From contig JAIXWM010000175.1 in NCBI GenBank assembly GCA_027491255.1, forward strand, positions 1 to 64,000: a stretch of 64,000 bases of DNA, given 5' to 3'. The translations under genes were made by a program, and so were the position numbers. This stretch comes from Rubrivivax sp. (GTDB taxonomy: Bacteria > Pseudomonadota > Gammaproteobacteria > Burkholderiales > Burkholderiaceae_C). Positions 27,987 to 37,995 of the stretch are shown here, piece by piece. Each line of letters opens with the position of its first letter. Within the stretch, counting starts at the first letter, position 1. The notes beneath the pieces were generated by a model, which was not told the DNA's origin, did not search any database, and saw only the letters and a list, made by a program, of their open reading frames with translations.

Positions 27987-28403
27987 TCACGCGCCGAAGA
28001 CCGCACGGTTGTTCTTGACGACGATGGCCTGGAAGTAGGGCTGGAACTGGTCTTCGGACACGCCCATGGCGCTGAGCAGGCGACCGAACATCGCCTGCTC
28101 CTGCGGGGCGGCCACGCCATCGGCAAGCAGCGAGTCGCACGCATTGACGAGCAGGCACAGGCGCTGGCGGTCGTCGAGCACCCCGGGCGCGGCCTGGAGG
28201 AACTCGTCGAAGCTCGCTGCCCGCCAGTACTTCACCGCGGTGTCCAGCAGCGCGCGGTCGGCGCCGACGATGCCGCGCAACTGCCCGAGCTCCTCCTCGC
28301 CAATCTGTCCGTCGGCGGCCATCATGTAAAGCACACCCACCGCCAGGGCGACACGAGGCTGCAGTTTCGGGCGCTCGTTCTTGAACATGTCGAAAAGACC
28401 CAT
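27987..28403 (-). CDS. TerB family tellurite resistance-like protein
   Basis: ALAVGVLYMMAADGQIGEEELGQLRGIVG ... 138 aa alpha-helical TerB-like protein. Confidence 0.75.
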   Translation of the reverse strand: MGLFDMFKNERPKLQPRVALAVGVLYMMAADGQIGEEELGQLRGIVGADRALLDTAVKYWRAASFDEFLQAAPGVLDDRQRLCLLVNACDSLLADGVAAPQEQAMFGRLLSAMGVSEDQFQPYFQAIVVKNNRAVFGA

Positions 28404-28580: not shown

Positions 28581-29648
28581 TCAGACGGCCTCGTACACCG
28601 CAAAGACCTTGTTCGAATTGAACACGTGCGTGCCGACGAAGCGGCTCCAGGCCAGGCGGGCGCCCAGGGCCTGCATCGCGCCCAGCAACGGGCACCAGTT
28701 CAGCAGTTCCTGCTGGCCGGCAGCCTCGAAGTCGGCGGTCGTGCTGCGGCGCCAGGCCGCGTAGTCGCCACGCTGCAGCGCCTGGTACAGCGCGCGGTCG
28801 GCTGTGGTGTCGGGAAACAGGCGCCAGGTGCGGTCGCACAGGAAGGCGTGTGACCAGCTCGACGACGCGACCAGCGCGACGCGCCAGGAGGAGTCGCGCA
28901 GGATGCGCGCGGTGGCCGCGCCCAGGTCCATGCAGCGCGCCGGGGAGGGGCCGGGCGGGTCGAAGTCCAGCGCCGCGCCGAAAGGGCTCATGAAGCCGCG
29001 GGCCGAGATCACGCGCCGCCCGTAGCAGTTGATCGGCACCGCGATCGTCGGGTAGGGCCAGCCTTGGCGGTCGTGGTCGAGGTAGAGGATGGCATTGGTG
29101 AAGGCATGCGCCAGACTCGGGTGGTGCAGCGGCTTGTAGGCGTAGGCGACGTCGAAGCCGCTGTCGATCAGCCCGGTCACGAGGTGCCGCGCCACGTCGC
29201 GCCGACCGCGCACACGGTAGTGCTTGTCGGGCCCCTCGCCCCAGGCGTTGGGCTTGCCGGCCATCATCGACGAGCCCTGGGCGTGGCGCCAGGGATGCAC
29301 GTCGATGTCGTCATAGGCGCAGACGGTGAAGGCGGGGATCACGTCCTCGCGGAAGTTCTCGTACTGGTCATCGCCCCAGATGAGCACGACGTCGGGCTGG
29401 AATTCGTCGAGGGCGCGGCGCACCTAGCGGAACTCGGCGACCAGGGCGGCGCGGTGCGCCGCGGCGGCCGCCGTGCCCTCGTCATCACCCCACTCGGCGC
29501 GCGCGGCCTCGGGCCAGACCCGCGGGTCCTTGACCCCCTCGGGGATGCCCTGATCGCGCAGGGTGACGCGCAGGATGGTCGCCATCTGCTCGTCCGGCAG
29601 CGACAGCGGCGGGTAGTGCGACAAGCCCAGTCCCAGCAGCTCGGCCAT
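28581..29648 (-). pseudogene. Class III (LigB-type) extradiol ring-cleavage dioxygenase interrupted by in-frame amber codon at 29424-29426
   Basis: MAELLGLGLSHYPPLSLPDEQ...AALVAEFR-[TAG]-VRRALDEFQPDVVLIWGDDQYENFRED...; both halves in the same frame with nothing else disrupted. Confidence 0.88.
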
Positions 29649-29708: not shown

Positions 29709-31130
29709 TCAGCGCAGCTCCGCCAGACGCTGCCGGTAGGCGCGCGCCAGGCAGTCCCTGTCAGCGCAGGGCCGCATCGACTCACGCAACCAGCGCAGTT
29801 GCTCCTGGCGCAACTTGTCCTTGTCCGCGGCCGCGTCGCGCGCGCGCCGATAGGCCAGGCTGAGTTCCACGTCCAGACCGGCGAGTTCGCGGTCGGCACA
29901 GACCATCTTCTCGGTGGCGTGCGTCGCCTTGACGCAGTCGAAGCTCGGACCCGCCGGCGCCGCGGCGGGCGCCACCGCAGGCAAAGGCGCCGCAGGCACC
30001 TGGGCAGGCGCTGCCGCGGCCATCGGCGCGGGCGCGGGCACGGGAGCCTGGGGCGGCGCTGGCGCAAAGGGCGCCGCGGGCGCCGGTGCGGCAAGGGGCG
30101 CAGGCGCCAGGGCAGGCGCGGGTGCCGGCCGCGGGGCCGCGGCGGGTGCCGGCGCCAACGGCGGCAGCAGCGCGACCGGCAACGGCACCTTGCGCGTCAC
30201 CGCGAACGTCCAGTTCGACCGGTTCTCGGGCAGATAGACCGCCGTGCAGCGCTCGTTCTCGGCCTGGCCGGAGACATGGTCGTCGCGCACCTCGCGCTTC
30301 CACTGCTCGTCGCTCAGGCCACACAGGCCGTTGATCGCCTGGCGAATGCGTGCCACCGTGGTCGCCGTGCGGCTGGTGCTTCCAGCGAACTCCACGACGT
30401 TGCCGTCGCGGTCGTAGCGCAGTTCCACGCTGCGCAGTTCGATGCCGAACCAGCGGTCCTGCCGGTTCAGCCCGCCCGACTCCTGGAATGGTGCCCAGGC
30501 GCTCTTGCGCCCGCCGAAGGGCGAGGTCGCCGCCTCGAGCGCATTGGGCGCCCGCCCCGGTGCGGCAGACCCCGGGCGCGCTCCGGGCAGACCCACTGCG
30601 TCGAACTGGAAGATGAACTCGGGGCTGGCGACCTTCCCGCTCAGCGTCAGGCTGCTCTCGCGCAGGCAGTCGCCGTCGGAGCCCGGCAGGAACCGGCCGG
30701 AAAAGGCGACGGTCCGGCCCTTCTTCAACGCCGAGGCGGTCTGGAAAAGATCGCTCGCCGGGTCGATCAGCGTCTTGTCCAGCAGGTCGGAGAAGGCGTT
30801 GTTCCAGGTCTTGACCTGCACGTTCGGCGCAATCTCGATGCCCAGCACGCCCTTGCCGTCGCTGTTGGCGTCGATCGTGATGACCTTGCCGGTCCAGCCG
30901 CTGACCTCGCGATCGGGCAGCAGCTTGCACAGCGCACTCTCGCGCCGCTGCTTGGCGCCACCCTTCTGCATCGCGTTGTCGGCGCGCTTGAACTCCTGCT
31001 GCGCCTGCACGACGATCTCGACGAAGCGGCGCTGCTCGCCGGTCTGCGAAGGCAGGCTCTGGGCCTGGACTTGCAGCGCGGCAAGCCAAGCACAGGCCCA
31101 GGTCAGGCGCGACCAGGCGGCTGTCTTCAT
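29709..31130 (-). CDS. Secreted protein with Ala/Pro-rich linker and C-terminal LprI (DUF1311)-like domain
   Basis: Signal peptide MKTAAWSRLTWACAWLAALQVQAQ; C-terminus SFDCVKATHATEKMVCADRELAGLDVELSLAYRRARDAAADKDKLRQEQLRWLRES. Confidence 0.85.
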   Translation of the reverse strand: MKTAAWSRLTWACAWLAALQVQAQSLPSQTGEQRRFVEIVVQAQQEFKRADNAMQKGGAKQRRESALCKLLPDREVSGWTGKVITIDANSDGKGVLGIEIAPNVQVKTWNNAFSDLLDKTLIDPASDLFQTASALKKGRTVAFSGRFLPGSDGDCLRESSLTLSGKVASPEFIFQFDAVGLPGARPGSAAPGRAPNALEAATSPFGGRKSAWAPFQESGGLNRQDRWFGIELRSVELRYDRDGNVVEFAGSTSRTATTVARIRQAINGLCGLSDEQWKREVRDDHVSGQAENERCTAVYLPENRSNWTFAVTRKVPLPVALLPPLAPAPAAAPRPAPAPALAPAPLAAPAPAAPFAPAPPQAPVPAPAPMAAAAPAQVPAAPLPAVAPAAAPAGPSFDCVKATHATEKMVCADRELAGLDVELSLAYRRARDAAADKDKLRQEQLRWLRESMRPCADRDCLARAYRQRLAELR

Positions 31131-31705
31131 CGCTGGCTTTCATTCTCGGTCTGCTCACGGCGGACGGCGCCGGATTCGTCCGTGGCGCCGGCCGCCCTGC
31201 GCTGCTCGATCATCCCGCGCAGGGTCCGCTTCAAGGCCTCGGCCTGGTCCAGACCGAAAGGCTGGAGCACGCGGGCCTCGTGTTCGCGCGCGAGCGCGAT
31301 CAGCGCAGAGACGGTACGCTGTCCCTCGGGGGTGATGCGCACGCGCGTGATGCGGCGGTCTGCCGTGTCGGCCAGCCGCTCGACCTGGCCGCGGGATTCC
31401 ATGCGGTCGAGCATGCGGGTCGCCGTCGGCCCCTTGTTCAGGGAAATCTGCGCGAGCTTGCCCGTGGTGAGCGTGTGGCCTCCCGACAGCGTGGCCAGCA
31501 CGCGCCACTCCGCCACCGACAGCCCGTGCGCCCGCACGACGCGGTGGAACTCGCCCGAGATCAGCTCGCTGGCCTGTGCGAGCAGCGCCGCGAGGTAGGT
31601 GTCGACAAAGGGCCGCTGTGCGTCGCTCGGGGCCACACCGGCACCGGGCGCCGCCGCGACCCCGCCCTGGGGGCTCGAGACGTTCCCGGAGTCGTCCACC
31701 CGCAT
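31127..31705 (-). CDS. MarR family transcriptional regulator
   Basis: RAHGLSVAEWRVLATLSGGHTLTTGKLAQISLNKGPTATRMLDRMESRGQVERLADTADRRITRVRITPEG. Confidence 0.93.
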   Translation of the reverse strand: MRVDDSGNVSSPQGGVAAAPGAGVAPSDAQRPFVDTYLAALLAQASELISGEFHRVVRAHGLSVAEWRVLATLSGGHTLTTGKLAQISLNKGPTATRMLDRMESRGQVERLADTADRRITRVRITPEGQRTVSALIALAREHEARVLQPFGLDQAEALKRTLRGMIEQRRAAGATDESGAVRREQTENESQR

Positions 31706-32513: not shown

Positions 32514-32561
32514 GGCTTTCGGGCTTTCGGGCTTTCGGGCTCTCGGGCTCTCGGGCTCTCA
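32514..32561. repeat. 8-bp tandem repeat GGCTYTCR x6
   Basis: (GGCTTTCG)3(GGCTCTCG)2GGCTCTCA read directly from 32514 to 32561. Confidence 0.97.
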
Positions 32562-33380
32562 GGCCCCCGGCACCAGCGCCAGCACGCGCAGCGGGCTGCC
32601 GCTGCCCTGCTCGATCTTCAGCGGCGGGCAGATCAGCACGCTGCCGGTGGGGGGCAACTGGTCCAGGTTGCACAGGCACTGCAGCCCGTAGCGCCCGGCC
32701 CCGTGCATGAAATAGTGGCAGGGATAGGGTGGGCGCAGGTGGTAACCCTGGCCGGCATCGGTGCCGATGGCCTCGGAGCCGAAGCCCAGCACGTCGCGCT
32801 GCTCGACCAGGAACTGCACCGCCTCGCTCGACGGCCCGGGCGTGTGCTGGCCGGTCTCGTCGAAGTTCTGGTAGGCCTCGGGGTCGCGGCGGCGGCTCCA
32901 GTCTGTGCGCATCAGCACCCAGGCGCCGGCTGGGATGCGGCCGTGCGCGCGCTCGAAGGCGTCGATGTCTGCCACTGTCAGCAGGTAGTCGGGGTCGGCG
33001 GCGGCCTGCTCGTGGCAGTCGATCACGCAGGCCGGGGCGACGAAGTGCTGCACCGGGATCGTGTCGACGGCATTGTTCGCAAGGTGACGGCCGGAGATCC
33101 AGTGGATGGGCGCGTCGAAGTGCGTGCCGGTGTGTTCGCCGCAGGAGAAGTTGTTCCAGTACCAGCCGGGGCCGCGCTCGTCGTAGCGCGAGACCTCCTC
33201 GATACGAAACGGCCAGCACTGCCCCATCTCGGGGGGCAGCGCGATCTGTGGGAACCCCGGGCTCAGCGTCTGCGTCAGGTCGACGACGCGGATGCCACCG
33301 CGCCCCAGCGCGCCGGCCAGGGCCGCCAGCAGCTGCGCTGGTGAGAGCTGCGGCGCGGTCGCGTGTGCGGTCTCGGTCAT
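32559..33380 (-). CDS. Cyclase family protein (kynurenine formamidase / isatin hydrolase-like, PF04199-type)
   Basis: GIRVVDLTQTLSPGFPQIALP; GEHTGTHFDAPIHWISGRHLANNAVDTIPVQHFVAPACVIDCHEQA metal-binding HxGTHFDAPxHW motif. Confidence 0.9.
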   Translation of the reverse strand: MTETAHATAPQLSPAQLLAALAGALGRGGIRVVDLTQTLSPGFPQIALPPEMGQCWPFRIEEVSRYDERGPGWYWNNFSCGEHTGTHFDAPIHWISGRHLANNAVDTIPVQHFVAPACVIDCHEQAAADPDYLLTVADIDAFERAHGRIPAGAWVLMRTDWSRRRDPEAYQNFDETGQHTPGPSSEAVQFLVEQRDVLGFGSEAIGTDAGQGYHLRPPYPCHYFMHGAGRYGLQCLCNLDQLPPTGSVLICPPLKIEQGSGSPLRVLALVPGA

Positions 33381-33384
33381 GTCC

Positions 33385-34635
33385 TCAACCCCCTGCAGCG
33401 AGTTCGCGCTCGAGCACGCGCGGATCCTCGCGCCAGCGCTCCAGCCACTCCTGCGCCACGTCACCGGGGTAGACGTCCTCCACCCCGTCCTTCAGCGCCT
33501 GCACCACGGCCCGGGCCAATGCATCGGGCGCCAGCTTGGGCGGCGGCAGGTTCTGGTTCCACTCGTCGTCCACCGGCCCGGGGAAGACGTTGACGACCCG
33601 GATGCCCGCCGGCCGCATCTCGGCACGCAGGCACTGCGCCAGCGAGTGCGCCGCCGCCTTGCTGGCCGAGAACGTGCCGTGGGGTGGAAAGTTCGCCAGC
33701 GCGTAGATCGACAGCAGGTTGACCCAGGCCGTGGCGTGCGTCGTCCCGTCGGCCGAGCGCCCCTTGAGCGCCGGACCGAACTCCTGCGCCAGGCGCAGCA
33801 GGCCGAAGTAGTTGACGTCCATCTCGGCACGCGCGGCGTCGGTACCGCGGCGTGCGCCGATACCGTGCGCTCGGTGCACCTCGGCGTTGTTGACGACGAT
33901 GTCGACCTTGCCGCCGATCTCGCCGGCCAGTTCCACCACGCAGCGCCCGTCGGTCACGTCCAGCGGCACCAGCGTGACCTGCGGCAGCGCGCGCAGCGCA
34001 TCGAAGCCGGGCAGCTTCTTCCAGGGCTCGGCATGGCCGACCCAGACGATGTCGGCCCCGGCGGCGACGAAGGCACGCACCAGGGCCTGCCCGAGCGGCG
34101 TCTTGCCGTCGCTCACCAGCACCTTGCGGAACTTCGGGTCGCTGCCCATCTCGCGCAGCATCTTGTCGTCGGCCATGTGCGGGGTCTCCGGATCGGGAAG
34201 GGCGATGACGACGGCGCGACCGGCACGGTCCAGCCGGGCCGTCAGATGCACCGGCTGGCCCGCCGCGGCGACGTCGCCGTGCAGGTGGACGACCAGCGTC
34301 GGGCCGCTGTCCAGGCGCACCAGGCCCAGGCGCCAGGGCAGTCGCTCCCGGAAGAACAGGTCGTTGCTGTGATGCAGCGTCGTCGCCGCCAGCAGGCGCC
34401 CGGCACCGGACTGGACGCGCCAGCGCAGGCGCGCCGAAACGCAGGCATGGCAGGCGTCGCGCGGGGGGTACTGCACGGCGCCGCAGTCCTGGCACACCTG
34501 CAACTCGAGCCGGCCCTCGGCGGCGGCCGCCGTCAGGCCCAGGGCGACACGGCCGCGCGCCCACGGCGGCAGGTTCATCTGCGGCGTGCGCAGCACCGGG
34601 TTCTTGCGCGGCGGGCGCATCAGCGGCATCGTCAT
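33385..34635 (-). CDS. DUF35 (Zn-ribbon/OB-fold) - SDR fusion protein
   Basis: N-terminus LELQVCQDCGAVQYPPRDACHACVSARLRWRVQSGAGRLLAATTLHHS (Zn ribbon + OB); C-terminal half VLVSDGKTPLGQALVRAFVAAGADIVWVGH...VNNAEVHR...FSASKAAAHSLAQCLRAEM (SDR). Confidence 0.85.
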   Translation of the reverse strand: MTMPLMRPPRKNPVLRTPQMNLPPWARGRVALGLTAAAAEGRLELQVCQDCGAVQYPPRDACHACVSARLRWRVQSGAGRLLAATTLHHSNDLFFRERLPWRLGLVRLDSGPTLVVHLHGDVAAAGQPVHLTARLDRAGRAVVIALPDPETPHMADDKMLREMGSDPKFRKVLVSDGKTPLGQALVRAFVAAGADIVWVGHAEPWKKLPGFDALRALPQVTLVPLDVTDGRCVVELAGEIGGKVDIVVNNAEVHRAHGIGARRGTDAARAEMDVNYFGLLRLAQEFGPALKGRSADGTTHATAWVNLLSIYALANFPPHGTFSASKAAAHSLAQCLRAEMRPAGIRVVNVFPGPVDDEWNQNLPPPKLAPDALARAVVQALKDGVEDVYPGDVAQEWLERWREDPRVLERELAAGG

Positions 34636-37506: not shown

Positions 37507-37995
37507 CTACATGAAGAGCTGCATGTTGCCGAAGCTGGCATCGCAGTTGACCAGGTCCACGCGCTTGAGCCGGATGCGCAGCCCGGCCGGCGTGGCGGCC
37601 AAGGTGTGCGTGGCCCAGCCGGCGTACAGCTGCTGCTCGTCGCGCCGGGTCTCGACATAGTGGAAGGCGCAGCGCGTCACGTAGACGCCCGCCGCCTCGT
37701 CGCGCGACTCCACCGTCGGCGCCTGCAGCAGGTGGTGGCAGCGGCTGGCCGGCTGCTGCGAGTAGGTGCGCGCGCCGCGCAGGCGCTCCACCCGTACCTG
37801 GAGCAGCAACTTGTCCTCGTGCATCAGCGAGGCGTGCAGCCGTGCGTCCGTCTGGCCCGCAGCAAGCGGCATCCAATAGAAGCCGTCCTCGGCGAACAGC
37901 GCCAGCCAGTCCTCGAAGCGCAGTTCGTCGAGCAGGCGGGCCTCGGCGTAGACGAAGTCGGTCAGTTCGCGGTCGGTGGGGACAGGCGTGCTCAC
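37507..37995 (-). CDS. Aromatic-ring-hydroxylating dioxygenase beta subunit
   Basis: TDFVYAEARLLDELRFEDWLALFAEDGFYWMPLAAGQ...HLLQAPTVESRDEAAGVYVTRCAFHYVETRRDEQQLYAGWATHTL. Confidence 0.9.
   Translation of the reverse strand: MSTPVPTDRELTDFVYAEARLLDELRFEDWLALFAEDGFYWMPLAAGQTDARLHASLMHEDKLLLQVRVERLRGARTYSQQPASRCHHLLQAPTVESRDEAAGVYVTRCAFHYVETRRDEQQLYAGWATHTLAATPAGLRIRLKRVDLVNCDASFGNMQLFM

Follow-up and report, generated by a model that had tools for sequence, protein, structure and literature searches.

Gene organization at the locus

The window, i.e. the whole stretch of 64,000 nucleotides of Rubrivivax sp. DNA analysed here, carries on its minus strand a gene for a LigB-type extradiol dioxygenase that is interrupted by one amber codon (Table 1). 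The minus strand from 29441 to 29409 reads GTC GCC GAG TTC CGC TAG GTG CGC CGC GCC CTC, and this TAG is the sole internal stop in the frame, whose translation is MAELLGLGLSHYPPL...VAEFR*VRRALDEFQPDVVLIWGDDQYENF...FAVYEAV*. Over its whole length, on either side of the TAG, the frame aligns to a single family of LigB-type extradiol dioxygenases, and since both flanks belong to the same family the continuity across the stop is far beyond chance. The closest relative, L023 (an uncultured beta proteobacterium, also reached as G061), is 90% identical and gapless over codons 1-355, while the remaining full-length homologues show about 54-79% identity. The sequence-only reading had described a single amber codon in an otherwise intact LigB-type gene; that description stands, and its coordinates are exact.

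Table 1. Features of the dioxygenase locus (positions in the window)
Feature	Position	Strand	Details and basis
LigB-type (class III extradiol) dioxygenase gene, broken at codon 75	28581..29648	-	355 codons; Pfam, homologues, predicted fold
Amber codon TAG that ends the frame early, at codon 75; L023 has Lys (AAG) here	29424..29426	-	sequence, homologue alignment
Codons 1-74, upstream of the stop; encode the invariant residues His11 (by motif a metal ligand) and His65	29427..29648	-	
Open frame of 280 codons that starts at the GTG next to the TAG and runs to the gene's own stop	28581..29423	-	
AMP-dependent acyl-CoA ligase gene, intact; downstream; same place in L023	26035..27765	-	
473-residue protein without Pfam match, intact; upstream neighbour; same place in L023	29709..31130	-	
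MarR-family regulator of the cluster, intact	31127..31705	-	
Putative cyclase (PF04199) of the cluster, intact	32559..33464	-	

The dioxygenase belongs to a conserved betaproteobacterial gene cluster of degradation type. Gene order is the same in the window and in L023 on both sides of it: a thiolase-type protein, a fusion of a ChsH2-type OB-fold with a short-chain dehydrogenase, the cyclase, a short-chain dehydrogenase, the MarR regulator, the protein without Pfam match, the dioxygenase, the acyl-CoA ligase and an oxidoreductase that, judging by its sequence, is probably of FAD type. The 473-residue protein conserved beside the dioxygenase in L023 contains a long Pro/Ala-rich stretch. A TerB-like small gene lies between the dioxygenase and the CoA ligase (27987-28403, minus strand) and is absent from that place in L023. 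A promoter and terminator scan around the dioxygenase gene yielded nothing useful, and the only match among plasmid records was a short one of 81% in Streptomyces.

Family assignment and predicted metal site

The Pfam model and the predicted fold both place the gene product in the LigB superfamily of class III extradiol dioxygenases, with a putative ring-cleaving activity. Residues 232-349 match Pfam LigB (PF02900) with 48.3 bits against a cut-off of 26.3. An AlphaFold2 model of the read-through protein, built with 26 homologues, has a pLDDT of 89.9 and a pTM of 0.91, and its nearest folds in the PDB are DesB, LigAB and MhpB. All 31 PDB matches with E <= 0.001 are class III extradiol or aminophenol dioxygenases, except for one unnamed protein, TK2203.

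The predicted fold matches that of LigB, the protocatechuate 4,5-dioxygenase beta subunit (PF02900; 1b4u/1bou), with a Foldseek E of 8.8e-15, but identity is about 17% and only the C-terminal part of the window protein reaches the Pfam model. The iron ligands of LigB are His12, His61 and Glu242 (PMC11926856). Glu314 and His267 of the window protein align with Glu242 and His195 of LigB, and His11 closes strand 1, where the motif would place the counterpart of LigB His12. The second ligand, His61, in contrast corresponds to Gln95, so that the canonical ligand set is only partly present. By sequence profile the closest solved structure is MhpB (2,3-dihydroxyphenylpropionate 1,2-dioxygenase; 8k04; E 8.6e-5), which has DHYNGFF where the window protein has DQYENF, Gln95 aligning with the His of DHYNGFF. 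Ligand sets vary among superfamily members, BvDOD for example using three His (PMC11926856), and the glutamine therefore bears on the canonical site and not on kinship.

Gln95 lies within the motif WGDDQYENF (29352-29378, minus strand) and is found in 80 of 80 homologues from Proteobacteria, Actinobacteria and other groups, a sample that leans somewhat towards Gln because one of the six search patterns held this residue. Sequence comparison thus marks it as a property of the whole family, independent of the stop. A literature search for a Gln-bearing LigB family gave no match. It is conceivable, though on balance doubtful, that the metal site of the intact enzymes is a non-canonical His/Gln/Glu one, or that these enzymes perform chemistry other than catechol cleavage; even then, the stop would be no more than an ordinary mutation.

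The residue replaced by the stop

A stop at codon 75 was found in none of about 80 homologues covering the codon, broken copies included. Among 80 unbroken homologues this column holds Arg in 47, Lys in 19 and His in six, followed by Glu, Thr and others; a single Gln comes from L067, a distant actinobacterial sequence. L023 has the Lys codon AAG. As this relative is syntenic and 90% identical, the simplest event is a change from AAG to TAG, i.e. one A-to-T change, and not from CAG to TAG. The sequence-only reading was right that a single base change explains the stop, but the C-to-T change that it proposed is not supported, and where it expected Gln almost every homologue carries Arg, Lys or His. 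Gln as the ancestral residue was rejected on the composition of the column together with the AAG of L023.

Selection and the age of the break

The dN/dS of the dioxygenase against L023 is 0.20, and that of neighbouring genes ranges from 0.05 to 0.26. With sequences from related betaproteobacteria used to polarise the changes, 11 replacements (not counting the stop) and 20 synonymous changes fall on the window branch, against 20 and 27 on the L023 branch, which indicates that replacement changes have not accumulated since the stop arose. By these counts the gene appears to have been under selection until recently, and nothing points to a long period of neutral decay. Two changes in the window affect highly conserved prolines, P33Q (Pro in 73 of 79) and P254S (79 of 79), while L023 has one comparable private change. 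These two replacements are a weak hint of relaxation; apart from them, the dioxygenase is free of the decay that would prove a pseudogene.

No other in-frame stop or frame break was found in a conserved gene in the part of the window collinear with L023, about 36 kb, to which the count is confined. We read the remaining apparent stops in the collinear alignment as belonging to antisense or shadow frames that overlap conserved genes. Taken with the lack of a replacement excess, this points to a recent, isolated event.

A single, isolated change with no decay around it is also what an assembly (consensus) or sequencing error would look like, in which case the organism would have a sense codon and an intact enzyme. 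The sequence is a draft in 202 contigs, the analysis drew on one assembly of the species, and an error is the second-ranked explanation, unlikely but to be taken seriously. However, a random single-base change in the gene has only about a 3% chance of making a stop (96 of 3186), so that one stop made by error implies a fairly error-rich sequence, and the collinear part has no further break. Errors of indel type, which would appear as frame breaks, were not seen, whereas substitution errors that make no stop would escape notice. The low rate of stop creation and the lack of a nearby break modestly favour a real mutation.

Translation across or after the stop

The intact frame downstream of the TAG is compatible with amber readthrough or recoding by a suppressor tRNA or pyrrolysine, which would yield a full-length enzyme. 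Yet none of the 43 tRNAs found in the genome has a CUA anticodon (the list is incomplete, a few such as Ile and Asp not having been found), and PylS stayed below the cut-off, with only weak matches of the kind given by 13 of 14 control genomes. Furthermore, the gene at 37507-37995 naturally terminates with TAG, as it does at the same place in L023, and no homologue shares the stop at codon 75. The readthrough option of the sequence-only reading is thus unsupported and, as a source of the full-length enzyme, extremely improbable. A conserved readthrough device is excluded, and incidental low readthrough is possible.

The TAG and the GTG abut (TAGGTG), a geometry permitting coupled termination and reinitiation, and the frame that follows is open and conserved; ribosomes stopping at the TAG might restart at the GTG and make a 280-residue protein keeping some function. 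There is no clear Shine-Dalgarno sequence ahead of the GTG, however, and the restart product would be deprived of the invariant His11 and His65 and of strand 1 of the predicted fold. Homologues that naturally begin at the GTG, which had been put forward as an observation that would speak against a broken gene, were not found, every full-length homologue aligning from codon 1. The downstream conservation is equally explained by recency, and we regard a functional restart as very unlikely.

A probable recent null allele of a putatively dispensable gene

The best explanation, to which we assign a probability of about 0.7, is a recent nonsense mutation, an ordinary kind of event, that gave a null allele of the LigB-type dioxygenase. 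Of the options listed by the sequence-only reading, a pseudogene of very recent origin and an error in sequencing remain in front. A Lys codon AAG, judged by L023, would have become TAG at codon 75 by one recent base change. Ribosomes would then stop within the long helix formed by residues 59-83, past strand 1; the resulting fragment of 74 residues would be missing most of the active site, and any GTG-restarted product would lack His11. Judged by the fold and the invariant residues, the fragment and the 280-residue product should both be inactive. Two points in this reading are inferred, the correctness of the base call and the absence of a useful enzyme.

The locus resembles recent single-nonsense pseudogenes or null alleles of other bacterial genomes in having one stop, an intact frame, intact relatives and no conserved recoding signal, with no notable difference. 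The disabling change is absent from the orthologues, as is characteristic of a recent pseudogene or null allele.

Within the genus, a long DNA match to the dioxygenase gene was present in only five of 81 genomes, the gene's own genome among them, and from this patchy presence the gene looks dispensable. Relaxed selection due to a second intact copy was considered and rejected: matches within the same genome are partial and only about 29-42% identical, none being a close copy. Broken copies occur elsewhere in the family, with a TAG at codon 21 (L037:1485-2543), a frameshift near codon 290 (L054:5001-6043) and, in the same genus, a truncated copy with a TAG (L011:1504-1941; G009/L011). These breaks are independent and fit a dispensable gene, though they also come from draft assemblies.

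Automated gene callers would annotate a 280-residue "dioxygenase" from the GTG, without part of the active site, and this genome should be counted as having a broken or uncertain degradation pathway. Beyond annotation the stop matters little; the glutamine in place of a metal-ligand histidine across the family is the point that a dioxygenase specialist might follow.
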